56,976 bases of DNA from NCBI GenBank assembly GCA_903896015.1, contig CAITWF010000080.1:1-56976 (forward strand), written 5' to 3'. Shown here one piece after another: positions 39,056 through 55,103 of the stretch. The stretch comes from an uncultured Opitutia bacterium. Lineage in GTDB: Bacteria; Verrucomicrobiota; Verrucomicrobiia; Opitutales; Opitutaceae. Both the position numbers and the translations under genes were made by a program. Each line of letters begins with the position of its first letter. The first letter of the stretch is position 1. Below the pieces are notes generated by a model. The model had not been told where the DNA came from. It saw only the letters and a list, made by a program, of their open reading frames with translations, and made no database searches.

Positions 39056-39075
39056 CAATCCAAAATCGAAAATCC
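39056..39075 (+). repeat. AT-rich heptamer repeat, 3 nt before the 7TM-HD start codon
   Basis: A 20-nt stretch built of AAAATCS-like 7-mers (CAATCC, AAAATCG, AAAATCC) ends 3 nt before the ATG. The identical 20 nt occurs 3 nt before the pyrB start (55084-55103). It stands in the place of a ribosome-binding site. Confidence 0.75.
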
Positions 39076-39078
39076 CAG

Positions 39079-41442
39079 ATGTCCGTCCGCAACCAGCTCA
39101 AACTCCTCGTCGGCGGCCTCGCAGCCCGCCGCAGCGGCGGCACGCCGCCCGTCGCGCATCACTCGGCGATGCGGGAGTTTCTGGATCGATCACGGCTCGT
39201 CGCGGCGCTCATTTTCGTCATCACAGTCTTCGCGATTCTCCTGATCAGCTCCGCCGGCGTCACGACGCTCAACGTCCCCGTCCAAACCGGCCAACTCGCC
39301 ACCGTGCGCGTGCTCGCCAGCGCGCCATTCCGCTACGAAAGCGCCGAGAAGACGCGCGCCGCCCGCGAGCAGTTCGTCGGCCGTGTGCCGCCCGTCTACC
39401 GGCTCGATACCGAGCCGTATCGTCGGTTCGAAGCCGCCTCCCGCGACTTGGTAACACAGCTCGACGCCTACGAGGCCGCGCACCCGCCGGCCCAGCCCGC
39501 AGTCAACTTCCGCGCCGCGTCCGCCCCCAGCGGGCTCGCCGCCCTCGCCGATCGGTTCAACGCTCGTGGTCCCTACCAAGTCACCGCCGACGATCTTGCG
39601 GCGCTGCTCACGGCGGGCGACGCCAAGGCGCGCGCCGCGCTCTTCGAGAACGGCCTCGCCTCGCTGCGTGATCTCTACGCGCAGGGCGTGACCGACGGAG
39701 CACTCGCCAACGCCGGCGCCGGCAACGCCGTCGTATTTCAGATCGAGCGGCCCAACGGCGACGTCACGCCGCGCTCCGTTCAGTCGATGGAAGACGCGCT
39801 CACGCTGCTCCGCGTGAGTCTCGCCGCCGACGGCGTGCCCCGTGCCGCCACACAGGCGATGTTCCGGGTTTTCCGCTTCGGGCTCACGCCCAACCTCGTC
39901 TTCGATCGCGCGGCCACCGTCGCCCGCCAGGACGCAGCCACGAAAAAACTGAAACCCGTCACGATCACCGTCGCTCGCGGCCAGTCGATTATAGAGCCGG
40001 GCGAGCGCGTGACGCCCGAGCAATACGAGATGTTTCAGGCGCACCGCCAATTCCTCCTCGAGCACGGCGACGTCGAACTCAACGAGGGACTCACACTCTT
40101 CGGCCGCGTGCTGCTCGTGCTGGCGATGGTGCTCGCGTCGCTCATCTATATTCGGATCGAGGACGCCGAGACGCTCCGCAGCAACGTCCGCTGCGGCCTC
40201 CTCGCGCTCGTCGTCATCGGCAACCTCACGCTCATTCGCGCCAACTACTCACTCGGCGGCGCGGAGTTTTTCCTGCGCGACAACGCGTGGGCCTCGACGC
40301 TACCTTACGTCGCGCCAACGGCCTTCGCCCCGCTCATTGTTGCGATCCTGATCGACGCGGGCTCGGGCATTTTCATGGCGCTGTTCATCTCGATTTTCAC
40401 CGGCGTCATCTACGGCAACCGCCTCGATCTGCTCGTGCTCACGTTTCTCGCGTCGCTCGTCGCGATCTTCATCGGGCGCGACGCGCGGCGGCGCGGGCGC
40501 GTCGTGCGGGCTGCGGGCGCGGGCGGGCTGACGGTCGCGGCGTTCGCCGCGCTCATCGGCATCGCCGATCAGACGCCCTTCGACACACTTGTCCGCCAAA
40601 TGACTGCTGGTCTCGGCACCGGCCTGCTCACCGGCATCGCCGTCGTCGGGTTGCTGCCCATCCTTGAGTCGCTCTTCAAGCGCACGACCGACATCACGCT
40701 CCTCGAACTCACCGACTACAATCACCCGCTGCTCCGCCGCATGCAGCTTGAGGCACCCGGCACGTATCACCACTCGCTTGTCGTCGCGCAGCTTTCGGAA
40801 AACGCCTGCAATGCCATCGGAGCAAATCCGCTCCTCGCCCGCGTCTGCGCGCTCTTCCACGACATCGGCAAGGTCAATAACGCCTCCTATTTCGGTGAAA
40901 ACACCCGCGAGCGCACCAGCCCGCACACCTCGCAGTCGCCGTTTGAGAGCGCACGCATCATCAAGCAGCACGTCGCTGACGGCGTCGACATCGCCCTCAA
41001 GCAAAATCTGCCTCGTGCCGTCGCCGACGTCATCCAGCAACACCACGGCACGACGCTCGTCCGCTTTTTCTATGACCGCGCCGTCGCCGAATCGCGCGCG
41101 CCCTTCGCTCACAAAAAAATCGAGCCCCCCCCGATCCCCGATCAGGAGTTCCGCTACGATGGCCCGCGCCCGCTGTTCAAAGAGAGCGCCGTCATCTCGC
41201 TCGCCGACGGCGTCGAGGCTGCCTCCCGCTCGCTCCGCACCGCCACCCCCGAGGCGCTCCGCGATTTGATCGATCGCATCGTCCGCGACCGCATCGACGA
41301 GAAACAACTCGACGAGGCCCCGCTCACCTTCGAGGAAATCACGAAGATTAAGAACAGCTTTCAGTTCACGCTGCTCAACATGCTCCACGCGCGCGTCGCC
41401 TACCCCGATCGCGAAACGCCGCCCGCCGCCGCCAAGGCCTGA
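39079..41442 (+). CDS. 7TM-HD phosphohydrolase (PgpH/YqfF-like)
   Basis: This 787-residue membrane protein has one N-terminal span (about 38-58), an extracellular 7TMR-HDED domain (about 60-330), several membrane helices (about 345-540) and a cytoplasmic HD domain. FHDIGK and QQHHGTT mark the metal site of the HD domain, which in PgpH hydrolyses cyclic di-AMP. That substrate is inferred from the family. Its start is preceded by the 20-nt heptamer element instead of a Shine-Dalgarno sequence. It lies 25 nt after the DUF1801 gene. Confidence 0.93.
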   Translation: MSVRNQLKLLVGGLAARRSGGTPPVAHHSAMREFLDRSRLVAALIFVITVFAILLISSAGVTTLNVPVQTGQLATVRVLASAPFRYESAEKTRAAREQFVGRVPPVYRLDTEPYRRFEAASRDLVTQLDAYEAAHPPAQPAVNFRAASAPSGLAALADRFNARGPYQVTADDLAALLTAGDAKARAALFENGLASLRDLYAQGVTDGALANAGAGNAVVFQIERPNGDVTPRSVQSMEDALTLLRVSLAADGVPRAATQAMFRVFRFGLTPNLVFDRAATVARQDAATKKLKPVTITVARGQSIIEPGERVTPEQYEMFQAHRQFLLEHGDVELNEGLTLFGRVLLVLAMVLASLIYIRIEDAETLRSNVRCGLLALVVIGNLTLIRANYSLGGAEFFLRDNAWASTLPYVAPTAFAPLIVAILIDAGSGIFMALFISIFTGVIYGNRLDLLVLTFLASLVAIFIGRDARRRGRVVRAAGAGGLTVAAFAALIGIADQTPFDTLVRQMTAGLGTGLLTGIAVVGLLPILESLFKRTTDITLLELTDYNHPLLRRMQLEAPGTYHHSLVVAQLSENACNAIGANPLLARVCALFHDIGKVNNASYFGENTRERTSPHTSQSPFESARIIKQHVADGVDIALKQNLPRAVADVIQQHHGTTLVRFFYDRAVAESRAPFAHKKIEPPPIPDQEFRYDGPRPLFKESAVISLADGVEAASRSLRTATPEALRDLIDRIVRDRIDEKQLDEAPLTFEEITKIKNSFQFTLLNMLHARVAYPDRETPPAAAKA

Positions 41443-41464
41443 CACCCGCGCGCGGCCGCTTTCC

Positions 41465-42430
41465 TCAGGTCGCCAGCGCCAATAGCGCGCGTTTCACGAG
41501 AGCCTTCGCCAGCGGGACCTTGAAGCCGTTGTGCTCACGCGGCTCGGCGTCGCGCAGCAGGATGTCGGCCGCACCCGCCGCCGTCTCGGCGGTTGCCGAT
41601 TTACCCTCGAGAAACGCGCTGACCTCCTTCATCTGCCAGGGAATCGCGGCCACACTCCCGAGCGCAAGCCGCACGTCGCGAAAGGTGCCGCCTTCGATGC
41701 GTCCCGCCGCTGCGCAGCTCACCAGCGCCCAGTCGAAATCGTTTTTCTCGGCGATTTTCACATAAACACTCAGCGCACCCGCCACGACCGGGACCTCAAC
41801 CCGCACGATCAGGTCGTCAGGTGCGAGCGAGTGGTGCGACTTCGCTTCCGTCCACGCTTTTTCGTAAAGTTGCGCGAGGGTGAGCGTCACCGTATTAGCG
41901 CCGCGCTGCACGACGACCGAAGCATCGAGCGCCGCGAGCGCCACGGCGAGATTCGAGACGCACGGGCTCAGACACATGGTCTTCGTGAACAGGCTGTGGT
42001 ATTTGTTTTCGCCGCCGCGCGCGAAACAGCGCGGGCCACCCTTCTTCATGCAGCGCACATCGCGCTGCCGGTAATACCAGCACCGCGAATGCTGCGCGAG
42101 GTTGCCGCCGACCGTCGCGACGTTTCGCATCTGCGGCGATCCCGCTTCCTCCGCCGCTTGCGCGAGCCCTGGTAACAGGCGCCGGATTTCCGGGTGATCT
42201 GCGAGCGTGGTTAGTGTCACGTTGGCCCCGATGGAAACATTCTTCGGGCTCGCAACGACTTCACGCGTTCCGGGCAACGCCTTCACGTTCACGAGCAGCG
42301 CCGGCTCGACGAGACCTTCCTTCATCTCGCCAAGCAGGTCCATGCCGCCCGCGAGGAAGCGGCCCTGCTCGCGGACCAGTTCCACGGCCGAGGCCGCCGT
42401 CTGCACCGTCACGTAGGAAAAGGCTTTCAT
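41465..42430 (-). CDS. Molybdenum hydroxylase FAD subunit with Cys-rich insert
   Basis: This 321-residue protein is of the CoxM/PaoB type and binds FAD: LAGGMDLLGEMKEG and ATVGGNLAQHSR form FAD motifs. A Cys-rich insert follows (SRCWYYRQRDVRCMKKGGPRCFARGG, about 115-140), resembling the extra [4Fe-4S] site of PaoB and 4-hydroxybenzoyl-CoA reductase beta. A C-terminal CO dehydrogenase-type domain ends it. It overlaps the stop of the large subunit gene by 4 nt and is the last gene of the operon. Confidence 0.9.
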   Translation of the reverse strand: MKAFSYVTVQTAASAVELVREQGRFLAGGMDLLGEMKEGLVEPALLVNVKALPGTREVVASPKNVSIGANVTLTTLADHPEIRRLLPGLAQAAEEAGSPQMRNVATVGGNLAQHSRCWYYRQRDVRCMKKGGPRCFARGGENKYHSLFTKTMCLSPCVSNLAVALAALDASVVVQRGANTVTLTLAQLYEKAWTEAKSHHSLAPDDLIVRVEVPVVAGALSVYVKIAEKNDFDWALVSCAAAGRIEGGTFRDVRLALGSVAAIPWQMKEVSAFLEGKSATAETAAGAADILLRDAEPREHNGFKVPLAKALVKRALLALAT

Positions 42431-44613
42431 GTGTAAGGGTGGCAGCCGCTATTGCCGTCAACCCACGGCGCACCCGGCGCCGCGGCGACACTCGCGAACG
42501 CGCTCTCAACTTCACGCGACCGCTCGGCCATCGTCGTCGCGGTTTCCTTCGGCACTTTGCCGAGCGCCGCCAGCACGCGATCGGGCGTGATCGGCAGGTC
42601 CGGCACTCGCACGCCGAGGGCGTTGGCCACCGCATTCGCAATGGCCGACGCCGTCGGAACCGTGCACGGCTCACCGACGCCGATGACGCCGCGCTCCGGC
42701 ATGTCGATGAGCAAAATCTCGATATCCGGCATGTCCGCCGCGCCGGGCATTTTGTAATTCTCCAGTGTCGGGTTGAGCACAAATCCCGTCCGCGCATCCA
42801 TCACCCGCTGCTCGTAGAGCGCGTAGCCAAGCCCGCCGATGACACCGCCGTTGATCTGGCTTTCGCACGTGAGCCGGTTCACGACGAGACCGCAGTCCTG
42901 CACCACGAGGATTTTTTTTACCGCCACGAAACCCGTCTCCGTGTCGACCGCCACCTCGGCAAACTGCACGCCACCCGCGCCACCCGTGGAGAGTCCCTCG
43001 CGCCACTTCCCGCGCACTTGGAGCGGCGCGGCTCCGATCATCGCGCACGCCACCTTCCAATTGGCCCCGCGCGGATCGTCGAGTCCGCTCAGTTTCTTCA
43101 GTTCCGCGATCACGTTCTCGCACGCATCGAAGATCGCCGGCGAGACCGATGCCGTCGTCGCGCTGCCGCCGCTCGATCCGCTCGGCGGCAACCGCGAGTC
43201 GCCAATGTGCGCAGTGATGCGGTCGCGATCGAGGCCCAGCAGTTCGGCCGCAACCACCTGCACCACCGTGCGCGAACCCGTGCCGAGGTCTTGCGTGCCG
43301 ACCCGCACCTCGACGGTTCCATCGGCGTTGACTTGAATTTCCGCCTGCGTGCCGCGTCCGCCGCTCATCCACGCCGCCCCCGCGCAACCGACGCCCATTT
43401 TCACCGGACCGGTCGAGGCTCCGGGCTTTTTGAATTTTTCCTTCCAGCCAAATTTCTCCGCCCCGATCACATACTCGCGCCGGCGGATTTCGTTCGGATC
43501 GTTTTTCAACCGGATCTCCACCGGATCCATGCCGAGCTTCGCCGCAAGATCGTCGAGCACCGCCTCCATACCCGCCGAGGCCGTTGGGTGTCCCGGCGCG
43601 CGAAACGCGCATGACTGGCCCGCGTTCACCGCCACGCTGCCTTGTTTCACGCGCGTCGCCGCGGGCTTATAAATGTAGGGTGCGGGAAAACTCGCTCCGC
43701 CGCTGCCACCGCCCTGGTTCGCGCCTGAGCTGTAGCCCGGCGTGCCGATCGAATAGATTTCAAACGCCGTCAGCGTCCCGTCCGACGCTGCGCCGAGTTT
43801 CAATTTCTGAAACGACGACGGCCGGTTGCCCACCGCGAGCCCCTGCTCGAAGCGCGTGAGCATGAGCTTCACCGGCACACCCGCCGCTTGCGCGAGCCGT
43901 GCGCACAACGCGCCCTCGACGCCCGGACTAAATTTCGATCCAAAGCCGCCGCCCATGTGCTCGCAGATCACGTGGACCTTGTTTTGCGCGACGTTCATGC
44001 TCTTCGCAAAAATGTCGCGGCACGCAAACACGCCCTGCGTCGAAGACCATGCGGTCATCTCGTCGCCGTCCCACTGCACCGTGTGCCCGTGCGACTCCAT
44101 CGGATGGTGAACTTGAGTCGGCGTGCTCACCGTCGTCTCCGCAATCGCGGTCGCCGCCGCGAACGCCGCCTCAACATCGCCCGTCGCCTTCGCCGCGCCT
44201 TCCGTTAGATTCGCGTTGCCGGCGGCGACTCGCGGCGAGTCCGTTTTCACCGCGTCGAGTTCTTTGACGACAAAATCCTTGGGCTCTGCACTCACTTCGA
44301 TCAACGCGAGCGCGTCGAGCACCGCCTGCTTACTCGTGCCGGCGATCGCGGCAATTTCGTCACCGTAGTAGCGCACATCGAACTCGCCCTCATGCGCGAG
44401 GATTGCGGCCTTGATGCCGGGCGCCGCTTTCGCCTTTTCCAAATTGACCGACTTTACACGCGCCGCCGCCCACTTCGACCGGAAGATCGCCCCGTGGAGC
44501 ACGCCCGCCGGCGCGACGTCGCTCGTGAACTTCGCGCGACCGGTCACCTTCGCGGGCCCGTCGACGCGCGGCGTTTCCTTTCCGAGATACCTGGTTGCTT
44601 TAGGCCACGGCAT
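42427..44613 (-). CDS. Molybdenum hydroxylase large (molybdopterin) subunit
   Basis: This 728-residue catalytic subunit is of the xanthine dehydrogenase/aldehyde oxidoreductase family. YLGKETPRVDGPAKVTGRAKFTSDV opens it, GGGFGSKF and FRAPGHPTA lie at the cofactor site, and the expected catalytic Glu lies in GVIGVGEP near the C-terminus. It oxidises an aldehyde or heterocycle using water, passing electrons through the 2Fe-2S and FAD subunits. Substrate is not clear. It overlaps the Fe-S subunit gene by 14 nt. It lacks its own export signal and probably hitchhikes on the Tat signal of the Fe-S subunit. Confidence 0.93.
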   Translation of the reverse strand: MPWPKATRYLGKETPRVDGPAKVTGRAKFTSDVAPAGVLHGAIFRSKWAAARVKSVNLEKAKAAPGIKAAILAHEGEFDVRYYGDEIAAIAGTSKQAVLDALALIEVSAEPKDFVVKELDAVKTDSPRVAAGNANLTEGAAKATGDVEAAFAAATAIAETTVSTPTQVHHPMESHGHTVQWDGDEMTAWSSTQGVFACRDIFAKSMNVAQNKVHVICEHMGGGFGSKFSPGVEGALCARLAQAAGVPVKLMLTRFEQGLAVGNRPSSFQKLKLGAASDGTLTAFEIYSIGTPGYSSGANQGGGSGGASFPAPYIYKPAATRVKQGSVAVNAGQSCAFRAPGHPTASAGMEAVLDDLAAKLGMDPVEIRLKNDPNEIRRREYVIGAEKFGWKEKFKKPGASTGPVKMGVGCAGAAWMSGGRGTQAEIQVNADGTVEVRVGTQDLGTGSRTVVQVVAAELLGLDRDRITAHIGDSRLPPSGSSGGSATTASVSPAIFDACENVIAELKKLSGLDDPRGANWKVACAMIGAAPLQVRGKWREGLSTGGAGGVQFAEVAVDTETGFVAVKKILVVQDCGLVVNRLTCESQINGGVIGGLGYALYEQRVMDARTGFVLNPTLENYKMPGAADMPDIEILLIDMPERGVIGVGEPCTVPTASAIANAVANALGVRVPDLPITPDRVLAALGKVPKETATTMAERSREVESAFASVAAAPGAPWVDGNSGCHPYT

Positions 44614-45271
44614 GGTCGTGCAGGGAGATGACGTTGAGCTTTGTCACCGGCTTTTGGCCGCTGGCCGCGAGCGTTGCGGCAAAGATGCGCGGATAGGATC
44701 CGCAGCGGCAGAGGTTGCCCGCGATCGCCCGGCGCACCTGCGCTTCGGACGGATGTGGATTTTTACGAAGCAGTGCGGTTAACACCATCACCATGCCGGG
44801 CGAGCAGTAGCCGCACTGCAGTCCGTCCCGGTCCACCATCGCCTGCTGGAGCGCGGTCAGCTTCCCGTCGCGCGCCACGCCCTCGATCGTCGTAATGTCC
44901 GCGCCCTGCGCCTCGATCGCGAGCAGCGAGCACGCGTAAACCGGCGTGTCGTTCACAAGCACGGTGCAGGCGCCGCACGTCCCGCGATCGCACGCCTCCT
45001 TCGCGCCCGTGAGGCCGGCATTTGCCCGCAGTACTTCAAGCAAAGTCACGCGCGGCTCGATCGAAAACGTCCGCGACTCGCCATTGACGCGGAGCGTTAC
45101 GCCCACGGCGCCGGGGCCCTGCGACCGCTCGGCATTGGCCTGGGCGAGACCCCGCGCGACATTGTTGGCGCCGAGGGTCGCGGCCGTGACCGCACTCGTG
45201 CCAAATGTCTTGAGAAACGTGCGCCGCGACACTGCATGCGGCCCGGTGGCATCGTGGGGGTTGGATTTCAT
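44600..45271 (-). CDS. Tat-exported 2Fe-2S subunit of molybdenum hydroxylase
   Basis: This 223-residue protein has a Tat signal (SRRTFLKTFG, about 15-24, followed by a hydrophobic stretch). The plant-type ferredoxin domain has the first 2Fe-2S Cys set ACDRGTCGACTVLV and the second set GYCSPGMVM ... NLCRCGSYPRI. It carries electrons from the molybdenum centre to FAD. The first gene of the operon (Fe-S, large, FAD order), it resembles periplasmic PaoABC of E. coli. No XdhC/PaoD cofactor chaperone is in the window. It lies divergently from ybeY. Confidence 0.92.
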   Translation of the reverse strand: MKSNPHDATGPHAVSRRTFLKTFGTSAVTAATLGANNVARGLAQANAERSQGPGAVGVTLRVNGESRTFSIEPRVTLLEVLRANAGLTGAKEACDRGTCGACTVLVNDTPVYACSLLAIEAQGADITTIEGVARDGKLTALQQAMVDRDGLQCGYCSPGMVMVLTALLRKNPHPSEAQVRRAIAGNLCRCGSYPRIFAATLAASGQKPVTKLNVISLHDHAVA

Positions 45272-45477
45272 GCGCGCCCGATTGACGCGAGTGTTGGCTT
45301 GGCGACGCCGACAAACAAGGCGGCCCGGCAGAGCGACGGCGCTTATTTTTCCCCGGCGGCGCCCCAAGTAATTTAACTGCTGAATCTCATTCCGCCATCC
45401 TTCGCCAAGAGATGCGCCGCCCCTCGCACGGTTTCCGCTTGCGTCGCGAGTGCCGGTATCCACACGAGACGACGACC

Positions 45478-45999
45478 GTGAACGTCCGCCCGCTTGCCAT
45501 CGCCAACCGCCACCCGCGCCTGCGCCTCGATCGCCGTGCGATCGCACGCGCGATCGCCACGCTCGACGCGCATGCCCCTCTCTTTGTCCCCGCAGCCCGA
45601 AAATCCGAAATCGAAAATCCAAAAGCGAAAATCTTCCCGGGCTGCCCGCCCGGCGAACTTTCGCTGGTGTTTCTCACCGACCCCGCCCTCGCGCAGCTCC
45701 ACGGCGACTTCCTCGCCGATCCGTCTACCACCGACGTGATCACCTTTGAGGGCAATTCCGCTCTCGGGACGGCCGGCGAAGTGTGCGTTTCGGCCGACAC
45801 TGCCGCCGCTTTCGCAAAAAAATCAGGAGCGGATTTTTCCTCCGAGCTCACGCTCTACCTCGTCCACGGCTGGCTGCACCTCGCCGGCTACGACGATCTC
45901 GTGCCGGCCAAAAAACGCGTGATGCGCCGCGCCGAAGCGCACGCGATGGCTCTCCTCCGCCGCGCCGGCGCGCTGCCTCGCTTCACGCTCCGTCGTTGA
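45478..45999 (+). CDS. ybeY: Endoribonuclease YbeY with an internal repeat-derived insertion
   Basis: This 173-residue protein starts at GTG (an ATG 22 codons upstream is possible). STTDVITF and LVHGWLHLAGYDD are the YbeY core, a single-strand RNase of 16S rRNA maturation. The zinc motif HGxLHLxGYDH is changed: His130 and His134 are kept, but the third ligand is Asp140. Residues about 41-53 (RKSEIENPKAKIF) are encoded by an AT-rich heptamer repeat that lengthens the protein over the usual 150-160. The gene is followed by DUF502, recO and others. Confidence 0.85.
   Translation: MNVRPLAIANRHPRLRLDRRAIARAIATLDAHAPLFVPAARKSEIENPKAKIFPGCPPGELSLVFLTDPALAQLHGDFLADPSTTDVITFEGNSALGTAGEVCVSADTAAAFAKKSGADFSSELTLYLVHGWLHLAGYDDLVPAKKRVMRRAEAHAMALLRRAGALPRFTLRR
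45599..45634 (+). repeat. AT-rich heptamer repeat inside ybeY
   Basis: Five consecutive 7-bp units of AAAATCC/GAAATCG/AAAAGCG type. It shares a 13-nt core with the elements before the 7TM-HD gene and pyrB. It is in frame and adds about 13 residues to YbeY. Confidence 0.7.
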
Positions 46000-46068
46000 G
46001 TTCGCTTCGGCCAACTGCGCAAAAAACTTTGCGTCTCGGCCGCTTTGCGTGAGCCTCGACGCCACGCC

Positions 46069-46731
46069 ATGCCCGACCAGCCCGGCAAGTCTCCGCTCAT
46101 CTCGCTGCGCAACGCCCTCCTTTCGGGCTTGCTGCTGCTCGCCCCGCTGTGGGTGACGATCTGGGCGTTCACGAAAATCGTCGATGTCTTCGGCGGTACG
46201 TTCCGCCCGCTCTACGAGCACTACCTGCCGCAGTCGCTCCAGCTTTACTCCTTCGTGCTCGATCTGCTCGCCACGATCACGGTGCTGATGTTCATCACCG
46301 CGCTCGGCTACCTCTCGCACTACGTCTTCGGTAAATTTTTCTACGGGCTGATCGAGCGCCTCATCCAAAACATCCCCGGCATCGGTGCGATTTACGACTC
46401 CGTCAAACAGATCGTCGCCACCTTCGGCTCCGAGCGGAAAAATCTCTTCAACAAGGTCGTCCTCGTGCAATTTCCCCGCCCCGGCTGCTGGACAATCGGC
46501 TTCCTGACCAACCGCACCCAGGGCGAACCGCAAGCGCGCACCGGCTCTGAAACGTGGACCGTGTTTGTGCCGACCACGCCAAATCCCACGAGCGGTTTCC
46601 TGCTCCTCCTGCCACGTCACGAGATCGTCGAACTCGATATGAACGTCGGCGACGCAATGAAAATGATCCTCTCCGGAGGTGCCGTGATGCCCCCGTGGCC
46701 GCATCCCGATCGCAAATCCGCCGCGAACTGA
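46069..46731 (+). CDS. DUF502-family membrane protein
   Basis: This 220-residue protein has two membrane helices (about 17-40 and 58-80) and a cytoplasmic/periplasmic DUF502 domain (IERLIQNIPGIGAIYDSVKQIVATFGSERKNLFNKVVLVQFPRPG). Family function is unclear; members are often near DNA repair or cell-envelope genes. The ATG at 46069 is used. It is followed by recO after 7 nt. A CTTTGCGT direct repeat lies just upstream. Confidence 0.88.
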   Translation: MPDQPGKSPLISLRNALLSGLLLLAPLWVTIWAFTKIVDVFGGTFRPLYEHYLPQSLQLYSFVLDLLATITVLMFITALGYLSHYVFGKFFYGLIERLIQNIPGIGAIYDSVKQIVATFGSERKNLFNKVVLVQFPRPGCWTIGFLTNRTQGEPQARTGSETWTVFVPTTPNPTSGFLLLLPRHEIVELDMNVGDAMKMILSGGAVMPPWPHPDRKSAAN

Positions 46732-46738
46732 TCCGCGC

Positions 46739-47365
46739 GTGCCGGCCCAAAGCCTCAACACCGACGCCTTCGTCCTGCTGAAACGTCCGCCCAAGGAGGC
46801 GTTTCAAACGCTCACCGTGTTTTCCGCCGAGCACGGCGCGCTCACCGTGCTGCAGCGCGTTGCCAAAAAATCTGCGAACGCGGCCGCCCCGCTCGATCTC
46901 TTCGATGAAGCGTCGCTCCTCCTCGAATCGTCCAACCAGGCCCGCACTTGGTTCGTGAAAGAAGCGCGCGTGCTCGCGCGGCCCAGCGGCATCGCGCGCC
47001 ACTACGAGTCGCTCCAACTCGCCTCCCAGCTCACCGCCCTCATCGCGCGCAACCCGGTGCACGAGGACGGCCGCGCCGCCGTCGCGACACTCTTACGCAC
47101 CGCACTCTCCGCTTTCGCCCACGGCGTGCGACCCGACGCCGTATTTTTCAAAAGTCTCTACTGCTTCGCCCGCGACGAAGGTTACCCCGTAAAACAACAA
47201 TGGCTCGCGACGCTGCCGAGCGAACTCCGCTCCGAGGCCGCTCACCTGCTCCGCACGCCGCTCGCCGGCCTTGAGCCCGTCGAGCCGAACCGTCCCGAAT
47301 CTGAAATCCTCCGGCGCCGGCTCACCGACTATCTGCGGGCACATACGGAAATCTTGTTCGACTAA
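46739..47365 (+). CDS. recO: DNA repair protein RecO
   Basis: This 208-residue protein starts at GTG. The N-terminal OB-fold (LNTDAFVLLKRPPKEAFQTLTVFSAEHGALTVLQRVAKKS) and C-terminal helical domain fit RecO, which loads RecA on single-stranded DNA with RecR. It is slightly short for the family, and no zinc-finger Cys set is visible, as in many RecO. It lies 7 nt after DUF502. Confidence 0.85.
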   Translation: MPAQSLNTDAFVLLKRPPKEAFQTLTVFSAEHGALTVLQRVAKKSANAAAPLDLFDEASLLLESSNQARTWFVKEARVLARPSGIARHYESLQLASQLTALIARNPVHEDGRAAVATLLRTALSAFAHGVRPDAVFFKSLYCFARDEGYPVKQQWLATLPSELRSEAAHLLRTPLAGLEPVEPNRPESEILRRRLTDYLRAHTEILFD

Positions 47366-47397
47366 ACGCGAAACAAGCCCAACACCCGAAAATTCCA

Positions 47398-47450
47398 TGA
47401 CCACGTCTTTCCTTTCGGGCGTTTCGGGTATGTCGTGGTGACAAAACCAG
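47398..47450 (+). repeat. 9-bp-periodic element between recO and the TVP38 gene
   Basis: TTTCGGGCG, TTTCGGGTA and TGTCGTGGT occur at 9-bp steps (47413-47439), flanked by CCACG and CGTGG. It occupies most of the gap upstream of the TVP38 gene and is not coding in a plausible frame. Confidence 0.5.
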
Positions 47451-47488
47451 TTCTCCCGTCTCCCGTTCTCCGCGCCTTCCCCTTGCCC

Positions 47489-48217
47489 ATGTCGTCTGCT
47501 TCCCTCGCCTCCTCTCCCGGCACTTTCCGTCGCTTGGGCGCCGCCGGGCCGGTCGCGATCATCCTGTCGTTCTGGCCGCCGCTCGGCGGCCTGATGCTGC
47601 TGGCCACGCTCACGACGTTCGCGCCGTGGCTCCGCGAGCATGCCGCGCTCGGCCTCGCGATTTATTTCCTCCTCACGGTGACCCTCGTCGGCCTCTCGTT
47701 TCTGCCGACGTTTGCGTGCGCGATCTACGCCGGCTGGACCTTTGGCTTTGCCGTCGGCAGCGCCGTCGCCCTCGCCGCGCTCACGCTCGCTTCACTGGTT
47801 GCCTATGCACTCGGACGCTGGATCGCCCGCGACCGCGTGCTTGCCGTGATCGACGAAAAGCCGCGCTGGAGTGCCGTCCACCGCGCATTGCTCGCCTCCG
47901 CTTCGGGACGCACGCTGCTGGTCGTTACCCTACTCCGCATTCCGCCCGCGTCCCCTTTTGCGATTGTGAACTTTGTGCTCGCCGCCGCGCGCGTGTCACT
48001 CGGGACCTACACGCTCGGCACGTTCCTCGGCATTGTGCCTCGCACGCTCGCAGCCACCTTCGCCGCCGCCGGCCTCGAACAACTGCGCTTCAAGGACGTC
48101 ACCGATCAACGCACCGCCGTCGCCGGAATCGTTGCCACGGTAATCGTCTGCATCGTCCTCGGCGTGCTCGCCAACCGCGCGCTCCGCTCGATGTCCACCC
48201 GCGTGGCCCAGGTCTAA
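47489..48217 (+). CDS. TVP38/TMEM64 (DedA-like) membrane protein
   Basis: This 242-residue inner-membrane protein has about five to six hydrophobic segments and the family pattern: SFLPTFACAIYAGWTFGFAVGS, YALGRWIARDRV, TLLRIPPASPFAIVNFVLAAARVS and GTFLGIVPRT. Homologues are thought to be lipid scramblases or transporters; the role is uncertain. The ATG at 47489 is chosen; an upstream frame start adds unlikely residues. Confidence 0.88.
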   Translation: MSSASLASSPGTFRRLGAAGPVAIILSFWPPLGGLMLLATLTTFAPWLREHAALGLAIYFLLTVTLVGLSFLPTFACAIYAGWTFGFAVGSAVALAALTLASLVAYALGRWIARDRVLAVIDEKPRWSAVHRALLASASGRTLLVVTLLRIPPASPFAIVNFVLAAARVSLGTYTLGTFLGIVPRTLAATFAAAGLEQLRFKDVTDQRTAVAGIVATVIVCIVLGVLANRALRSMSTRVAQV

Positions 48218-48232
48218 TTTTTGCGCGCCCGC

Positions 48233-50593
48233 ATGGAATTCTCCCTCGACGCCCATGCCGCCAGTTTCAGCGTGGGTGAGTTCGCCAATTTCTCGGTCGG
48301 CCCGCACGACGCCGGGTCCGGCGCGACCGGACTCTGGCGCGCGCAGCTTGGCACCCACTGGCACAACGAACTCCGCGCGCAGGCCACCGTCGAGCACGGG
48401 CCCGCCGCCGAATTCGAAATCCCGATCGAGGGCCGGGTCTTTCACCGCGGTTGGACGCTGACGCTCACGGGCCGCATCGATCAACGGTTGCGCCGCGAAG
48501 GTCGCGTCACACTGCGCGAAATCAAGACCGTCACGCGCGCGCTGCCCGTCGACGAGTCCGAGTTGCGCCGCGATTATCCAGAATATTTTGTCCAGCTCGC
48601 GACCTATGCCGCGCTCACGAGAATCGGTCAGATTGAGCCCGTGATCTCGGCGCTCAGTTCACAACTCGTCTTCGTCGAAACGGGCAGCGGTCTCTCCCAA
48701 TCAATCGCCCTCACCCCCGCCGACGAAGCGCTTTTCCGTGCGCAGCTCGATCGCGTGGTCGATTTTCTTAGTTTGCGGCACCGCGCCCGGGAGCGGCTGC
48801 GCGGGCTGCGCTTCCACTCGCCGTTTGCCACACCACGTCCGGGACAGGAAACCACACAGGCGGAGCTGACGGCGATTTTCGAAAGAAATCCGCTGGTGCT
48901 GTTCGAAGCGCCAACCGGCTTCGGCAAGACCGGCGTGCTGCTTGAGTTTGCCCTCGGCCAGCTTCGCGCCGGCCACTTCGATCGCGCGCTTTATCTTACC
49001 AGCAAATCCACGGGCCAGCTCCAGGTCGTCCGCACCCTCGCCATGATGTCGGCGGGCGACGGCGGCACGCCGGTCACGGTCTGGCACGTGCGCAACAAAT
49101 CCGAACACTGCATCAACCATACGTTTCACTGCGTGCGCGAGAGCTGCACGTTTCTCGACGACGTGGCGGCACGCTGGCCCGCGAGCGGCCTTGCGCGCTT
49201 CTACCTCGACGAAAAGCACGCGCGCGATCTCGATACGTTGCGCGCCGCCGGCAAAGCCGCCCGCACCTGCCCCTACGAAATCACGCGCGCCGCGCTCGCC
49301 TTCAACGACGTCTGGCTCGGCGACTACAACTACGTCTTCGCCCCGCGCAACCGCACCCTCTTCTTCGATCAGCCCGGCTTCGATCCCGCGCGCACGCTGC
49401 TGCTCCTCGATGAGGCGCACAACCTGCCCGCACGCGTCGCTGATGCGCACTCGTTTCTCGCCACCGCCGACGACGCGCGCGCCCTCCTCGCCGAACTCGA
49501 TCACGTGAGCGCGGCGAAGCCCCTCATCCGGGCATGGGAAAGCTGGACGCGACTGCTCGCCGCCCTCGCATCCATCGATCAACTCGATCACGCCCTTGAG
49601 GCCGACGCTGCCGACACGCTTGAAAAAATCTCCGCGCACCTCGTCGAAGCGCCGCCCGACAGCGCCGCGCTCGGCCCGCGATTCGCGGAAATTCTCTGGC
49701 AAGCGCCCGAACTTGCCGCGTGGCTCGGAAACCCCGCGCTCAAAAAACTCCTCTGGTGCCCGCGCGCCGGCGAACTGTCCTTCACGTGCCTCGACGCCGC
49801 CGACGCGATCGGCGAAACGCTCCGCACCTTCGGCGGCGCCGTCTTCGCGAGCGCCACGCTCACCCCGGTGGAAAATTTTGCCGAGTCGTGCGGAATCACG
49901 CGCGCCCCCACGTCGCCCACCCACCTTCGCGCGCACACTCCGTGGCGCGACGGCACCTACGACATCGCAGTCGATGCGCGCGTCGACACGACCTTCCAGC
50001 ATCGCTCGCGCTATTTCGCCCTCACCGCGCGCACGATCGCGGAATTGCACGGCGCCGCGCGCGGCGCGGTCGCCGTTTTTTTTCCGAGCTACGCCTATGC
50101 CGAATTGATCGCGCGCGAACTCGATCGCGCCACGCCGCTGCGCGTTGCCCTCCAGCCCAGGCTGCGCGATCTCACTGCGCAAACCGCGTGGGTTGACGAA
50201 TCGCTCGCGTTTGCCGACGTGCTCTTTCTCGTCCTTGGCTCGAGTTTCGCCGAAAGCATCGATGCGCTCGGCGGCCGCATCACGCATGCGATGGTCGTCG
50301 GTCCGGCGCTCCCGGAGGTTAACGCCGTGCAGCGCGCGCGGCTCGCCGAGTTTGCGCCCCTCGGTCGCGAGGCCGCCTTCCGCCGGGTCTACCAAATCCC
50401 CGGCATGACGAAAGTGAACCAGGCCCTGGGCCGCCTCGTGCGCGCCCCCGGCCAGCACGCCCGCGTGATCCTGCATTGCCGCCGTTTTCTTGAGCCGAGT
50501 TACGCCTCGCTGCTCGCCCCCGACTACCAGTTCGGCGTTAACGTCCTTACCGACGCCGACCTCGCCGCCTGGCTCGAACGCCCGCCGGTGTGA
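48233..50593 (+). CDS. Nuclease-helicase fusion: PD-(D/E)XK domain plus XPD/DinG-like helicase
   Basis: This 786-residue protein has an N-terminal nuclease-like domain: GRIDQ (Asp83), REIKT (Glu96, Lys98) and QLATY (Gln121 to Tyr125), the classic D...ExK...QxxxY. A superfamily 2 helicase follows, with Walker A APTGFGKT (226-233), DEAH (393-396) and four Cys (293, 300, 305, 346) placed like the XPD/DinG Fe-S cluster; motif VI NQALGRLVRAP lies near the end. It could nick and unwind DNA in repair, like a Dna2/Cas4-helicase combination. ATG 48233 chosen over TTG 48221. Confidence 0.88.
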   Translation: MEFSLDAHAASFSVGEFANFSVGPHDAGSGATGLWRAQLGTHWHNELRAQATVEHGPAAEFEIPIEGRVFHRGWTLTLTGRIDQRLRREGRVTLREIKTVTRALPVDESELRRDYPEYFVQLATYAALTRIGQIEPVISALSSQLVFVETGSGLSQSIALTPADEALFRAQLDRVVDFLSLRHRARERLRGLRFHSPFATPRPGQETTQAELTAIFERNPLVLFEAPTGFGKTGVLLEFALGQLRAGHFDRALYLTSKSTGQLQVVRTLAMMSAGDGGTPVTVWHVRNKSEHCINHTFHCVRESCTFLDDVAARWPASGLARFYLDEKHARDLDTLRAAGKAARTCPYEITRAALAFNDVWLGDYNYVFAPRNRTLFFDQPGFDPARTLLLLDEAHNLPARVADAHSFLATADDARALLAELDHVSAAKPLIRAWESWTRLLAALASIDQLDHALEADAADTLEKISAHLVEAPPDSAALGPRFAEILWQAPELAAWLGNPALKKLLWCPRAGELSFTCLDAADAIGETLRTFGGAVFASATLTPVENFAESCGITRAPTSPTHLRAHTPWRDGTYDIAVDARVDTTFQHRSRYFALTARTIAELHGAARGAVAVFFPSYAYAELIARELDRATPLRVALQPRLRDLTAQTAWVDESLAFADVLFLVLGSSFAESIDALGGRITHAMVVGPALPEVNAVQRARLAEFAPLGREAAFRRVYQIPGMTKVNQALGRLVRAPGQHARVILHCRRFLEPSYASLLAPDYQFGVNVLTDADLAAWLERPPV

Positions 50594-50680
50594 CCGCTCG
50601 GCAACTGCGCGGTTGATGTCCGCTCACATATCCGCGAAACAACTTGCGAAAAATCGCGTCCCATCTCGACAACCCATCCC

Positions 50681-53581
50681 ATGCTTGCTGCTCGCTTACT
50701 CGGTTGTAACCCACTTCGCCTTGCCCGGAAAATTCCCGCGCTCATCTCGCTGCTCTCGTTGGTCGTGCTCGCCTCCCCGCATGTTTTTGCCCAAGGCGGC
50801 GGGGGTGGTGCCGGCGGGGGTGGTGGCGGCGCGGCCGGCATTAACATCGGCACCATCGTGGGCAATCTCCCCGCTGGCATCAATGCCGGAACGGTCGCGG
50901 GCATCATCGGCAATCTTCCCGCCGGCACGAATCTCGGCAATTTCGCCGGCGCGATCGGCGGCAACGGCACGCTCAGCACCACGCCGACAATCGTCACCAC
51001 GACCGGCCTGCTCGCCGGCGACTCTGGCACCGCCAACGTTGTCATCCCCGCGCAAGCCGCCGCCGCCATCGCCAGCGGCACCACCGATCCCAATGCGATC
51101 GTCACGGCCAACACGAACTCCTATCTGTGGTCGATCACCGGCGGCACCCTCACCTCCGATCCGACAAAACCCTCCGTCACCTATACTGCGACGGCCACCG
51201 GCACGGCGACTCTGTCAGTCGCGGTGACAGTTGTCGGCTCCTCGCCCGTCACCGCCTCGGCCAACGTCACCGTCGTCTCGCCCGATACCGCGGGCACGAT
51301 TACCGCGCCCGTGACCATCGCCACCAACGCTGCGAGCTCCACCGCCACCGTGCCCGCCGCGGTGAGCGGCGACCGCACGTTTCGCTGGACCGTGAGCGGC
51401 GATGCTTCGATCGTCGGCAGTGCCACGACCGCCACGCTCACCTTCAAACCCGGCACACCCGGCGTGAAGGATATCAGCTGCGCGGTGCGGCTCCAAAATC
51501 TCGTCACGGTCAATTTGCACTCCTTCCTCGTCGTCACCGGCTCTGGCCCGGCGACCGCCGTCACTGTCGTCAACGGCGCCGGCAGCGGCACCTATCCCGG
51601 CGGCTCGCGCATCGACGTCCTTGCCGATCCGCCCGCCGCCGGCCAGGTGTTCGACAAATGGACCGGCGATGTCTCCGCCCTCGGCACCGGCGCGCTCGCC
51701 GCAACGCTGCCGCACGCGATCATCACCGTCCCCACGACGCCGATTACGCTCACGGCGAATTACAAACCCGCCGCCACCTGGACGCCGACCGTAATCACGT
51801 CGTTCAATCCCCAGTCGATCACCAACGCCACGACCAACAACACCACGAGCGTCGGTACCACGCTCGCGTATTTCGTCCCCACCAACGCCAGCGGCATCGT
51901 AGTCCTGCTGCATGATACCGGCGGCAACGTGAACGAATGGTTCAACACCCCCGAGAAAGCCCAGCTCGCACGCGATCTCGTCGCGGCGGGTTATGGGGTC
52001 GCGGCGCTGAACAACATCAATCGCAACACCGGCGCGTGGAACCAGCAGACAACGCTCGCGAACAATCCCGACGCCCTCAACGTCGCCGCCGCCCTCGCCC
52101 AGCTCGTCACGGCCGGAGCCACCACCGCAACGACGCCCGCGTTTCTCCTTGGCGACGCCAACGGCGCTGACGCCGCCGCGAGCTACGCCGAACTCCTCGC
52201 CGCCTCCAAACCGATCAAGGGTGTCGTGCTCTTCGACACCGCTGGCAGCGAAACGCTCGCCGTCACCTCGCACATCCCGCAATTATTCGCGCTCTCTTCC
52301 AACGACAACGTGATCGGCACCGCCGGCAACACCACCGCGCGCAACAACTCGCAGCTCCTCGTCGGCCGCGGTGTCACCTCAGCGACGACAACCAGCACGG
52401 TCGTCCCGATTTACCCGAACCGCTTCCGCGCGATCGGCAACGGCGCTAACGCCTTTACCGCCACCGATGCGGCCAGCGTGTTCACCGCGTTGAAAACGGC
52501 CGCGCTAATCGACGCCAACAGCTACCTCAAAGCGATCCCGACCAGCGACGCGCTCAAGGCCGCGCTGCCCGCCAACTACCAAGCTCGTGCCGCCGATATC
52601 GCCACCGAACTCAACGTCGCCTATGCCGCCTCCGAGCTCTACAGCGAAGCTGACGCACGCGTGATCGCGTTCCTCAACACCCGCGTCGCCGGCGCCGCCA
52701 GCCCGACGCCCGGCCGGCTCGCCAATCTTTCTACGCTCGGAAAAATCTACACCGCCACCGACAGCTTTACGCTCGGCTTCAACATCGCCGGCCCGGAAAA
52801 GGCGACCCTGCTCATCCGCGGTGTCGGCCCTGCGCTCGGCAGCCTCTTCAAGATCGCGACCGCGCTCCCCGCCCCGCGCCTCGAAGTGTATAACAGCGCC
52901 AACACGCTCCTCGCCTCCAACCAAGGCTGGGATCAGGCCAGCGCAGCGACGACCGCCCAAGTCACCACTGCCTCGAGCGCCGTCGGCGCGTTTGCGCTGC
53001 CGGCAAACGGCGGTGATTCCGCCGTTGTCCTCGCGAACCTCGCACCCGGCGCCTACACCGTCACCGTGAAAGGCGTCAACGGCTCCGTCGGCGATGTGCT
53101 CGCGGAAGTCTACGACGTCACGAAAAATTCCACGCGTCTCACCAACCTCTCGACCCTCGCCAGCATCAACAACCCCGGCGATCAACTCGTTCCCGGCATC
53201 GTGGTCCAAGGCGCGAATCCGCGCACGCTTCTCATCCGCGCTGTCGGCCCCGGACTCACCACCCTCGGAATTCCGGCGAGCTCCGTGCTCGGTGATCCGC
53301 GCGTCACCGTGCTGAGCGGCAGCACGACCGTCGCGGCCAACAACAACTGGTCCCAAGGCGGCGCGACCGGCCAAGCCGCCTCGCTCACCGCTGCATTCCC
53401 CGCGGTCGGTGCATTCCCGCTGACCACCGGCAGCAACGACGCCGCCCTGATCAGCGCGCTCGCCGCTGGCAACTTCACGCTCCAAGCCGATGCCACTCCT
53501 GCCGCGGGTGGCCAGCAAACGACGACCGTCACCACCAACCAAACCGGCCTCGTGCTTGTGGAAGTCTACGAGGTGCCGTGA
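50681..53581 (+). CDS. Large secreted protein with beta domains, inactive hydrolase-like domain and Opitutaceae-type C-terminal repeats
   Basis: This 966-residue protein has a signal peptide (about 1-38, ending VFAQ). A Gly-rich stretch and NLPAG repeats (39-95) follow, then two Ig/PKD-like domains (about 105-285), an InlB-type repeat (GTYPGGSRIDVLADPPAAGQVFDKWTG, about 303-329) and an alpha/beta-hydrolase-like domain (about 395-650). Two C-terminal repeats (about 690-830 and 835-966) carry LLIRGVGPALG and LLIRAVGPGLT and end in EVYDV or EVYEVP. In the hydrolase domain the G-x-S-x-G elbow reads GDANG, with Ala for Ser. Probably a surface or extracellular adhesin-like protein. Confidence 0.82.
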   Translation: MLAARLLGCNPLRLARKIPALISLLSLVVLASPHVFAQGGGGGAGGGGGGAAGINIGTIVGNLPAGINAGTVAGIIGNLPAGTNLGNFAGAIGGNGTLSTTPTIVTTTGLLAGDSGTANVVIPAQAAAAIASGTTDPNAIVTANTNSYLWSITGGTLTSDPTKPSVTYTATATGTATLSVAVTVVGSSPVTASANVTVVSPDTAGTITAPVTIATNAASSTATVPAAVSGDRTFRWTVSGDASIVGSATTATLTFKPGTPGVKDISCAVRLQNLVTVNLHSFLVVTGSGPATAVTVVNGAGSGTYPGGSRIDVLADPPAAGQVFDKWTGDVSALGTGALAATLPHAIITVPTTPITLTANYKPAATWTPTVITSFNPQSITNATTNNTTSVGTTLAYFVPTNASGIVVLLHDTGGNVNEWFNTPEKAQLARDLVAAGYGVAALNNINRNTGAWNQQTTLANNPDALNVAAALAQLVTAGATTATTPAFLLGDANGADAAASYAELLAASKPIKGVVLFDTAGSETLAVTSHIPQLFALSSNDNVIGTAGNTTARNNSQLLVGRGVTSATTTSTVVPIYPNRFRAIGNGANAFTATDAASVFTALKTAALIDANSYLKAIPTSDALKAALPANYQARAADIATELNVAYAASELYSEADARVIAFLNTRVAGAASPTPGRLANLSTLGKIYTATDSFTLGFNIAGPEKATLLIRGVGPALGSLFKIATALPAPRLEVYNSANTLLASNQGWDQASAATTAQVTTASSAVGAFALPANGGDSAVVLANLAPGAYTVTVKGVNGSVGDVLAEVYDVTKNSTRLTNLSTLASINNPGDQLVPGIVVQGANPRTLLIRAVGPGLTTLGIPASSVLGDPRVTVLSGSTTVAANNNWSQGGATGQAASLTAAFPAVGAFPLTTGSNDAALISALAAGNFTLQADATPAAGGQQTTTVTTNQTGLVLVEVYEVP

Positions 53582-53592
53582 CGTTTACGCGC

Positions 53593-53614
53593 GCGGGCGA
53601 TCGCTTGCGCCCGC
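53593..53614. terminator. GC hairpin between convergent genes
   Basis: GCGGGCG/CGCCCGC (7 bp, 8-nt loop) lies just after the stop of the secreted protein and just before the end of the convergent anchored protein gene. It has no T-run, so the terminator call is weak. Confidence 0.35.
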
Positions 53615-53615
53615 C

Positions 53616-54407
53616 TTACTTCCCGCTCAGTTGCTTCGCGAATTTGTCCACCGCGTCGGCGGGAATGATGGCGCGCAACCCGTCCGAAGTTTTCTGAAAC
53701 GCGAGCCCCTGCTCCTTGGTTTTTCCGTCTTCGCTCGCCAGCCGCAGCCGCACGCCGATCACATCCGGGCTGATGTCGCGCTGGCCGAGGATCTGCATGC
53801 CCGTGACCGACGCCGCATCCTTCGCGATCATCAGCGCGATCAGCTTGTCGGGTGAACCGTATTGCGCCCGCGTCGCCTCGGGCAGCCGCGCGAATAATTC
53901 CTCCGCCCTCGCCTGCGCCGCCGGATCGAGGAGAATCGAACTCGCCAACGTGTCGACATCGCCGCCAATCGCCGCCGACAGAACGGTCTCGACCGCCGCC
54001 GACAGCGTCGCACGCCCGGCATTTTTTAAATCGCCCGCCGGCGTCAATTTCACCGGGATCGGACTCTCCCCGCGCGCGGCCTGTGTCGCGGCCTGCGCCA
54101 GCCGCGTGGCGTTCTGCGTCTGTTGCACCGCGGCATGCGCAAGCACAACGAGCGCCTTCACTTCATTGCGCAATTTCTCCAGCTCCGCGCGCTCCTCATC
54201 CGCGCGCGCGCTTTCGGCCGCAACGTTTCCACCCGGCGCGTTCGCGGCAGCGGCCGCCGTCTGCCGCAGCTTTTCGATCCGTGCAAGGTCGCCGCGCAAC
54301 GCGCCAACTTCCTCGCGCAACTCCGCCAGATTTCGTTCCTGAATGAAAAACACTCCCGCCCCCAGCATCACTCCGAAGCCCAAGAGCCCGAACCACAGTT
54401 TGTTCAT
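53616..54407 (-). CDS. Membrane-anchored coiled-coil protein, unknown
   Basis: This 263-residue protein has an N-terminal membrane helix (about 5-22) and then a coiled-coil region (about 24-110, Ala/Glu/Arg-rich, such as LAELREEVGALRGDLARIEKL). The C-terminal alpha/beta-like part (about 130-263) contains DTLASSILLDPAAQARAEELFARLPEATRAQYGSPDKLIALM. No family is recognised. It probably faces the periplasm. It converges with the large secreted protein. Confidence 0.65.
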   Translation of the reverse strand: MNKLWFGLLGFGVMLGAGVFFIQERNLAELREEVGALRGDLARIEKLRQTAAAAANAPGGNVAAESARADEERAELEKLRNEVKALVVLAHAAVQQTQNATRLAQAATQAARGESPIPVKLTPAGDLKNAGRATLSAAVETVLSAAIGGDVDTLASSILLDPAAQARAEELFARLPEATRAQYGSPDKLIALMIAKDAASVTGMQILGQRDISPDVIGVRLRLASEDGKTKEQGLAFQKTSDGLRAIIPADAVDKFAKQLSGK

Positions 54408-54506
54408 GTCTGATTCGTCTCAGATTAAACCGGCCACGTCACGCCCGGCGTCGCCCGCAAAGAAAATCCTTCCCTCCGCGCGCGCGAACCGGCTCAATCG
54501 ACTCTC

Positions 54507-55070
54507 GTGGCCACACCGAAGACCATCGGCTCGGAGGAAATTCACGCCGCGATCGAGCGGCTGGCTGCGGCCGTTTCCGCCCGGCACGCCGGCATCAAGA
54601 CGCTCCTCTTCCTCGGCATTGCCAACGGAGGCGTCGAGCTCGCCCGGCGACTTGCCACGCGCGTCGGTCAGCTCGCCCCCACCCTCAAGCCTCGCGCCGG
54701 CACGCTCGACATCTCGTTTCACCGCGACGACGTCGGCCGCCATCCGATCCCGAAGGAATTCGCACCCACCTTCATCCCCGCCGATGTCCATGGCGCGCAC
54801 ATCATCCTCGTTGATGATGTGCTCTTCTCCGGTCGCACCGTGAAGGCCGGCCTCGACGAACTCTTCGATCAGGGCCGCCCCGCCAAGGTTGAGCTCGCCA
54901 TCCTCATCGATCGCGGCGGCCGTCTCCTGCCGTTCGCGCCCGACTACTGCGGCTTCGCTGTCGCCGTGAAATCGACGGAGAAAGTCTTTGTTTCCCTCGA
55001 CCCCACCGACCCGCGCCGCGACACGATCCGGATCGCACCCGCCGCCGCGAAGATGAAAACGGCGGTCTAA
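54507..55070 (+). CDS. pyrR: PyrR-like uracil phosphoribosyltransferase/regulator
   Basis: This 187-residue protein starts at GTG. It has the PRPP motif IILVDDVLFSGRTVKA and DRGGRLLPFAPDYCGF, typical of PyrR. PyrR controls pyrimidine synthesis and has uracil phosphoribosyltransferase activity. It sits in front of pyrB and pyrC. I see no convincing anti-terminator or attenuator hairpin in the 54408-54506 leader. Only 36 nt, mostly a heptamer repeat, separate it from pyrB. Confidence 0.92.
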   Translation: MATPKTIGSEEIHAAIERLAAAVSARHAGIKTLLFLGIANGGVELARRLATRVGQLAPTLKPRAGTLDISFHRDDVGRHPIPKEFAPTFIPADVHGAHIILVDDVLFSGRTVKAGLDELFDQGRPAKVELAILIDRGGRLLPFAPDYCGFAVAVKSTEKVFVSLDPTDPRRDTIRIAPAAAKMKTAV

Positions 55071-55083
55071 AGTCCCAAATCCG

Positions 55084-55103
55084 CAATCCAAAATCGAAAA
55101 TCC
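55084..55103 (+). repeat. AT-rich heptamer repeat, 3 nt before the pyrB start codon
   Basis: The 20 nt are identical to 39056-39075, and the spacing to the start codon is the same (3 nt). A longer run of related 7-mers begins at about 55074. No Shine-Dalgarno sequence is present. Confidence 0.75.

Follow-up and report, generated by a model that had tools for sequence, protein, structure and literature searches.

The 56,976-nt stretch of DNA analyzed here (bases 1-56976 of contig C80, in the following called the window) is part of a 4.96 Mb assembly of 123 contigs from an uncultured bacterium of the Opitutaceae. It contains two identical copies of a 20-nt sequence, which is built from 7-bp units of the form NAAATCS and stands directly in front of two unrelated genes, encoding a 7TM-HD phosphohydrolase and the aspartate carbamoyltransferase PyrB. 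The best explanation is that both copies belong to a dispersed heptamer repeat, similar to repetitive extragenic palindromic (REP) sequences or miniature inverted-repeat transposable elements (MITEs), which is tolerated at the edges of genes and within loops of proteins, and we regard this as probable. It builds on the observed dispersal of the repeat, its preferred length, its orientation, the occurrence of occupied and unoccupied orthologous sites, and its divergence. In the following, the window genome is designated G000, a sister species of the same genus G001, and an Opitutaceae relative, which is rich in arrays and was picked for their number, G003.

The sequences at positions 39056-39075 and 55084-55103 agree in 20 of 20 nt and have no further exact copy in the window, and none of 100 dinucleotide shuffles of the window gave any exact 20-mer copy. 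Both stop 3 nt short of a start codon, the ATG at 39079 and the GTG at 55107, respectively. In these points, and in the form of the unit, an earlier sequence-only reading of the window was correct. The 20-nt element that it described is real, but not the whole: its second copy forms the final part of a five-unit array (55070-55103), a third array is present in ybeY, and the genome contains 21 arrays.

The reversed pattern served as the control in the repeat searches. The exact two-unit pattern has 24 matches in G000 (reversed pattern: 0), and 167 (reversed: 18) when one mismatch is allowed. When up to two mismatches are allowed, the three-unit pattern has 46, 72, and 262 matches in G000, G001, and G003, compared to 0, 1, and 0 matches of the reversed pattern. 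They merge into 21 arrays in G000 and 32 in G001, and every array was inspected. G000 thus contains seven-base tandem units with many dispersed copies, the hallmark of dispersed heptameric repeats. The short tandemly repeated repetitive (STRR) sequences of cyanobacteria are dispersed heptameric tandem repeats as well. Exact three-unit matches are present in 25 of 61 genomes of the family, in 3 of 34 other genomes of the order, and in 44 of 288 genomes across the phylum, and some class-level relatives are very rich in them; therefore, the repeat is not restricted to the Opitutaceae. Three class-level relatives from one genus of another family (G186, G098, and G157) have 234, 142, and 36 exact three-unit matches, respectively, and 16 of 22 sampled genomes of this genus have none.

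Length and placement were counted for arrays of at least three units. Five-unit arrays make up 15 of 21 in G000, 22 of 32 in G001, and 13 of 28 in G003; a small number of units is thus preferred, with the lower side of the length distribution being cut by the exclusion of shorter arrays. The mode at five units favors an element of about 34 bp over an open-ended microsatellite. In the commonest array types listed, CAATC is the leading unit of at least 9 of 21 (G000), 11 of 32 (G001), and 17 of 28 (G003) arrays.

Genes were called with a codon-usage open reading frame caller; starts are therefore approximate, and where an array follows a called start by a few nt, the true start may lie downstream of it. 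In G000, 17 of the 21 arrays lie within called genes, all 17 in sense orientation and 13 of them at least 60 nt downstream of the called start, while three lie between co-directional genes and one between divergent genes. Of the two proposals of the sequence-only reading, that of a dispersed repeat that has settled at start codons is supported. G001 has 24 of 32 arrays within genes (23 sense, 1 antisense) and eight between genes. Both genomes together have 40 of 41 in-gene arrays in sense and one in antisense orientation, and 33 versus 1 (P = 4e-9) when the count is limited to positions 60 nt or more downstream of the called start. In the 640 kb of G003 that were sampled, 21 of 28 arrays are intergenic, six are within genes (five sense), and one is at a gene edge. 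In the co-directional gaps of the three genomes, 16 of 17 antisense arrays are nearer to the preceding stop codon, and 10 of 15 sense arrays are nearer to the following start codon.

The in-gene arrays use all three reading frames. The unit is open in all frames, and because 3 x 7 = 21 the same seven-residue cycle, K-S-K-I-E/Q-N-P/R, results in each frame (a typical peptide is QSKIENPKSKI). The sense frames are hydrophilic (hydropathy -1.4 to -2.0) and the antisense frames are hydrophobic (+0.6 to +1.3), and thus selection against harm can explain the strand bias. Sixteen of the 41 array-bearing proteins were scanned, and 14 had Pfam matches, including RNB, S55 peptidase, sulfatase, AMP-binding, exosortase, U32, GT9, AlkZ-like, BatD, BadF, YbeY, PurD, and cytochrome. 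In YbeY, the array replaces or lengthens a loop ahead of the conserved GELSLVFLTD block. Fifteen of 30 ybeY loci passed a motif filter, with one strand being read; the array was found by rule in G000, G059, G016, and G005, as two units in G022, in degenerate form in G037, and by coordinates in G040, and it thus spans several genera, while it is absent in this comparison in sister species G001, G043, and G024. The ybeY gene of G005 (L089) contains a second heptamer type, CACTGGT/CATTGGT, next to its AAATCG arrays. Of the 27 aligned rows of the AlkZ-like protein, 6 carry the array in one and the same loop (four recognized by rule, G001 by a looser rule, and G047 by eye), and five short antisense matches were flagged in its frames away from this loop.

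In G003, the array forms both arms of palindromes of about 115 bp, which have two small hairpins between the arms and fill gaps between stop and start codons. The left arm follows the stop in antisense orientation, and the right arm precedes the next start in sense orientation. The intergenic orientation rule would thus result from the geometry of the palindromic element, and the strand rule within genes from the character of the peptide. Nine G003 elements, chosen for being palindromic, have 29 consensus pairs, six of them with two-sided changes (small covariation term, -0.92 kcal/mol), and the folds of two tested G003 elements are far more stable than those of shuffled sequences (z -9.9 and -5.3). 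An antisense array is present at most 150 nt upstream in 11 of 28 cases in G003 and 4 of 32 in G001. Two loci (L272 1426-1609 and L274 10240-10413) contain an extra module, GTTTCGAG-hairpin-GACAGTCTGCC, inside the heptamer arms, which resembles a separate small hairpin repeat.

Seven arrays, picked by eye, are common to G000 and G001, and their mean identity is 0.78, compared to 0.77 in their flanks. The individual values are 0.88, 0.73, 0.76, 0.76, 0.85, 0.71, and 0.76 for the arrays and 0.77, 0.74, 0.81, 0.83, 0.76, 0.72, and 0.74 for the flanks, and six of the seven arrays align without gaps between the two species.

The 20-mer is the 3'-part of a repeat of about 34 bp, which most often has five NAAATCS-type heptamers, the first often being CAATCS, and which is one of a set of seven-base arrays found in many Opitutaceae. 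From these results we infer an insertion route and a selective filter. The copies probably came as, or derive from, arms of REP/MITE-like palindromes, which are seen whole in G003, and the arrays would afterwards have been inherited and have decayed like the surrounding DNA. They would persist where the harm is small, i.e., in tight co-directional gaps and in variable protein loops with a hydrophilic KSKIENP-type peptide, and the site directly before a start codon would be one tolerated place among several. The array is poor in G and has little structure, as suits an organism in which translation begins without a Shine-Dalgarno sequence.

Several observations weigh against this reading. In G000, one of 21 arrays each has an antisense array at most 150 nt upstream or downstream. 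The in-gene strand bias is smaller when arrays of at least two units are counted (21 sense to 12 antisense in an 850 kb sample of G000, 11 to 7 in a 400 kb sample of G003), but many of these short matches carry a mismatch and may have originated by chance. Two of the seven arrays shared with G001 are better conserved than their flanks, and as the flanks are mostly coding, a modest constraint on the shared arrays is possible. No transposition event or target-site duplication was found, and the sole within-genus comparison, downstream of pyrB in G003 and G051, has diverged gap ends. A Y1_Tnp match is present in 52 of 61 family genomes, in G000 as one weak match, and Y1 transposase counts correlate weakly with exact three-unit counts (rho 0.27, P 0.03, 61 genomes) and more closely with the counts of heptamers with a general A-N-T-C pattern (rho 0.45, P 2e-4, 61 genomes); however, G001 has arrays and no Y1 match. 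The evidence for a mobilization of the array by Y1 transposases or REP-associated tyrosine transposases (RAYTs) thus cuts both ways and is ambiguous. In addition, the pyrB leaders have an array in 7 of 30 loci, and such a recurrence could also be explained by a function. Lastly, the two window leaders are among the least structured of the genome (4.9% and 8.1% of 568 genes have weaker structures), which a functional leader would show too.

The last two points also bear on the other proposal of the sequence-only reading, namely, that the array is a translation-initiation or RNA-protein binding element. Such an element would take the place of the Shine-Dalgarno sequence and would be recognized by the ribosome (S1) or a regulator. 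The adjacency to starts is real. The proposed check of unit-to-start distances against random positions revealed a preference: 3 of the 21 G000 arrays end 0-15 nt before a start, compared to 0.7% for random oriented placement (P = 4e-4, an optimistic value because two of the three are the pair that prompted the finding). Independent of G000, 9 of the 11 co-directional sense arrays of G003 end 4-11 nt before the called start (the distances of all 11 are 4, 11, 5, 8, 5, 11, 37, 66, 4, 9, and 4 nt). The exact spacing of 3 nt holds for both window copies, but is not a rule, as the range of 4-66 nt in G003 shows. The same idea of an initiation element has been published for the TAACTGA repeats (PMC4679880). 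However, 17 of 21 G000 arrays reside in genes, and a strict start-codon element was dropped for this reason; an initiation element is not needed to explain the repeat.

The comparison of orthologous leaders, made for each gene on the 30 best loci from a search of 61 genomes, also counts against such an element. An array precedes pyrB in the seven loci mentioned, and in an eighth (L101) it is clear by eye but was missed by the rule. The 7TM-HD leader contains a sense array in 1 of 30 loci; the other 29, including a same-genus species, are without it, and in one further locus an antisense array lies close to the start. G001 has the array at pyrB too, but there it encodes the C-terminal tail of the preceding protein. 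The same array can thus belong to a gene in one species and to a spacer in its sister. Moreover, the shared arrays are on average conserved no better than their flanks. The sequence-only reading had noted that both genes lack a Shine-Dalgarno sequence, which is true, but ordinary: the core GGAG/GAGG/AGGA is found at -18 to -4 of 26 of 566 G000 genes (4.6%), compared to 6.4% in shuffled leaders. Starts without a Shine-Dalgarno sequence are thus normal in G000, and other genes therefore start without arrays. The folds of both window leaders are not more stable than those of shuffled sequences (z -1.0 and 0.4). Taken together, we consider an initiation element rather unlikely, although the array may affect translation initiation locally, given the weakly structured window leaders. 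The final 4 nt before G000 starts are 48% C.

The NAAATCS array is not the only seven-base array of the family. In G003, 54 arrays of period 7 were found. Periods 6, 8, and 10 had 12, 18, and 3 arrays, respectively, and periods 4, 5, 9, 11, and 12 had none; lags 1, 2, 8, and 14 are raised as well. A sample of 60-nt leaders from loci around four genes in family genomes showed strong lag-7 repetition in 25 of 329 cases. Gene interiors showed it in 4 of 383 cases and leaders of more distantly related bacteria in 3 of 297, and 21 of 318 family leaders remained after removal of the AAATCS arrays. The units vary (CTCTCAA, CACTCGT, CATTCCG, CTACTCG, CACTCTT, and others, in addition to AAATCG), different types stand before pyrB in different genomes, and two types are present in one ybeY. 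This many-unit picture rests on G003 and the family leaders and is not seen in the window genome, where a de novo scan of 850 kb detected three arrays each at periods 7 and 6, and the pooled intergenic lag-7 signal was not raised (z -0.8). A process, present or past, that writes varied seven-base tracts into the same slots of Opitutaceae genomes, i.e., stop-to-start gaps and variable protein loops, is conceivable, yet we regard it as rather doubtful. If it existed, the period of 7 nt would be constant and not the sequence, and a dedicated replicating or templating activity would await discovery. A grammar shared by all unit types, with A-N-T-C at fixed places, was considered and rejected as weak: the four-unit pattern has 2258 matches in the 61 genomes, versus 996 of the reversed pattern, and is higher than the reversed pattern in 37 and lower in 18 genomes. 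Three G003 loci (L272, L277, and L382) have ACTCCTG/TATTCTG arrays before starts, and ACTCCTG, when rotated, fits the class 3 consensus MTYCTGA of Geobacter.

The variation of units with a constant period would also fit simple slippage, i.e., a microsatellite-like local expansion and contraction from chance seeds, as would the tandem structure itself and the longer runs of unit matches in some relatives, e.g., G033. However, the length mode at five units, the gapless alignment of six of seven shared arrays, and the inverted arms with hairpins in G003 argue against slippage, which we judge unlikely. Selection for the KSKIENP-type peptide as a surface linker, with intergenic copies as by-products, would fit the sense orientation of 40 of 41 in-gene arrays and a peptide cycle that is the same in all frames and placed at variable sites of YbeY and the AlkZ-like protein, but it is highly improbable, as the array is missing in 21 of 27 AlkZ-like rows and in the YbeY of G001, arrays also occur between genes, and the strand bias is already explained if the hydrophobic antisense peptide is avoided, with no need to select the sense peptide.

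Heptamer repeats before starts have already been published for other phyla, and the dispersed array of the Opitutaceae is another of that sort. The TAACTGA repeats of Beggiatoaceae are dispersed seven-base sets, mostly in forward orientation and a few nt before starts, and the associated genes mostly lack a Shine-Dalgarno sequence and show no clear function class (PMC4679880). NAAATCS arrays resemble them as short direct repeats before starts of genes without a Shine-Dalgarno sequence; in contrast, forward TAACTGA copies carry stop codons and the sets are nearly all intergenic, whereas the NAAATCS unit is open in all frames and its G000 arrays are mostly in genes. The GGGAATC and GGGGA(C/T)T heptamers of Xanthomonas and Nostoc prefer four units, occur also as inverted pairs, and carry their G-rich strand in antisense orientation near starts and in sense orientation near stops (PMC4692102). 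A preferred unit number (four versus five), a strand-specific placement at starts and stops, and inverted pairs, which are clear in G003, are thus shared with NAAATCS, but those heptamers form G-quadruplexes and are under-represented in coding regions, and NAAATCS has no such G-tracts. A mostly intergenic location, which is true of TAACTGA and GGGAATC repeats, does not apply to G000. In Geobacter metallireducens, four or five tandem heptamers occur, with one family of 49 within and between genes, similar to NAAATCS in both respects, yet the units are different and were proposed to be regulatory RNA or regulator sites (PMC2700814). A paper on heptamer arrays in Verrucomicrobia was not noticed among the matches listed, which covered mostly freely accessible literature.

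Opitutus terrae is a member of the same bacterial family as the window genome. Many intragenic GTAG REPs have been described for this species, and they are defined by a GTAG tag on a stem-loop (PMC3733652). A membership of the NAAATCS arrays was rejected because no tag enrichment exists beside them: GTAG/CTAC lies within 40 nt of 2 of 23 G000 entries, which count two arrays twice, and of 8 of 28 G003 entries, compared to 25% and 24% of random places. Inverted dimers around a palindromic core, a further feature of REPs and bacterial interspersed mosaic elements (BIMEs), are clear in G003, but an antisense array upstream accompanies 1 of 21 arrays in G000 and 4 of 32 in G001. Rickettsia palindromic elements are inserted in frame into unrelated genes and encode a recurrent peptide (PMC10969869), and G000 arrays are alike in both features; however, the Rickettsia elements are palindromes of about 150 bp, while the in-gene copies of G000 are mostly lone sense arms of about 34 bp.

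Start-adjacent heptamers have elsewhere been proposed as regulatory sites, whereas in Opitutaceae starts would be only one of several tolerated places, which provides a neutral and testable model of heptamers next to start codons in general. Owing to the period of 7 nt, the repeat can reside in a gene in each of the frames and encode the same peptide, and the arrays may be a source of novel protein loops. That units of various sequences share one period in Opitutaceae is a lead on the origin of such repeats.

The arrays of the window and their neighboring genes are compiled in Table 1.

Table 1. NAAATCS arrays of the window and adjacent genes.
Feature	Position	Strand	Remarks
Three-unit NAAATCS array	39056..39075	+	between DUF1801 gene and 7TM-HD gene; identical to 55084-55103
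Five-unit NAAATCS array	45601..45634	+	inside ybeY, sense, in frame; reads KSEIENPKAKIF
Five-unit NAAATCS array	55070..55103	+	between pyrR-like phosphoribosyltransferase gene and pyrB; units 3-5 form the 20-mer
DUF1801 gene	38595..39053	+	PF08818; stop ends 2 nt before the 39056 array
7TM-HD phosphohydrolase gene	39079..41442	+	PF07697, PF07698, PF01966; ATG 3 nt after the array
ybeY	45412..45999	+	PF02130 at residues 82-180; in-frame array precedes the conserved domain
Phosphoribosyltransferase-domain gene	54507..55070	+	PF00156; stop codon touches the 55070 array
pyrB (aspartate carbamoyltransferase)	55107..56057	+	PF02729, PF00185; GTG 3 nt after the array

Judged by its position, the phosphoribosyltransferase-domain gene is probably pyrR. 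No Rfam family matched within the window at the gathering score. The closest named relatives of the window pyrB are from Opitutaceae/Opitutae metagenome assemblies. Downstream of pyrB, a palindromic element is present in G003 (L115 2435-2630) and absent in its congener G051 (L114). PyrB matches with E < 1e-119 were found in 60 of 61 family genomes, and the best match in the 61st had an E-value of 9e-17 only.

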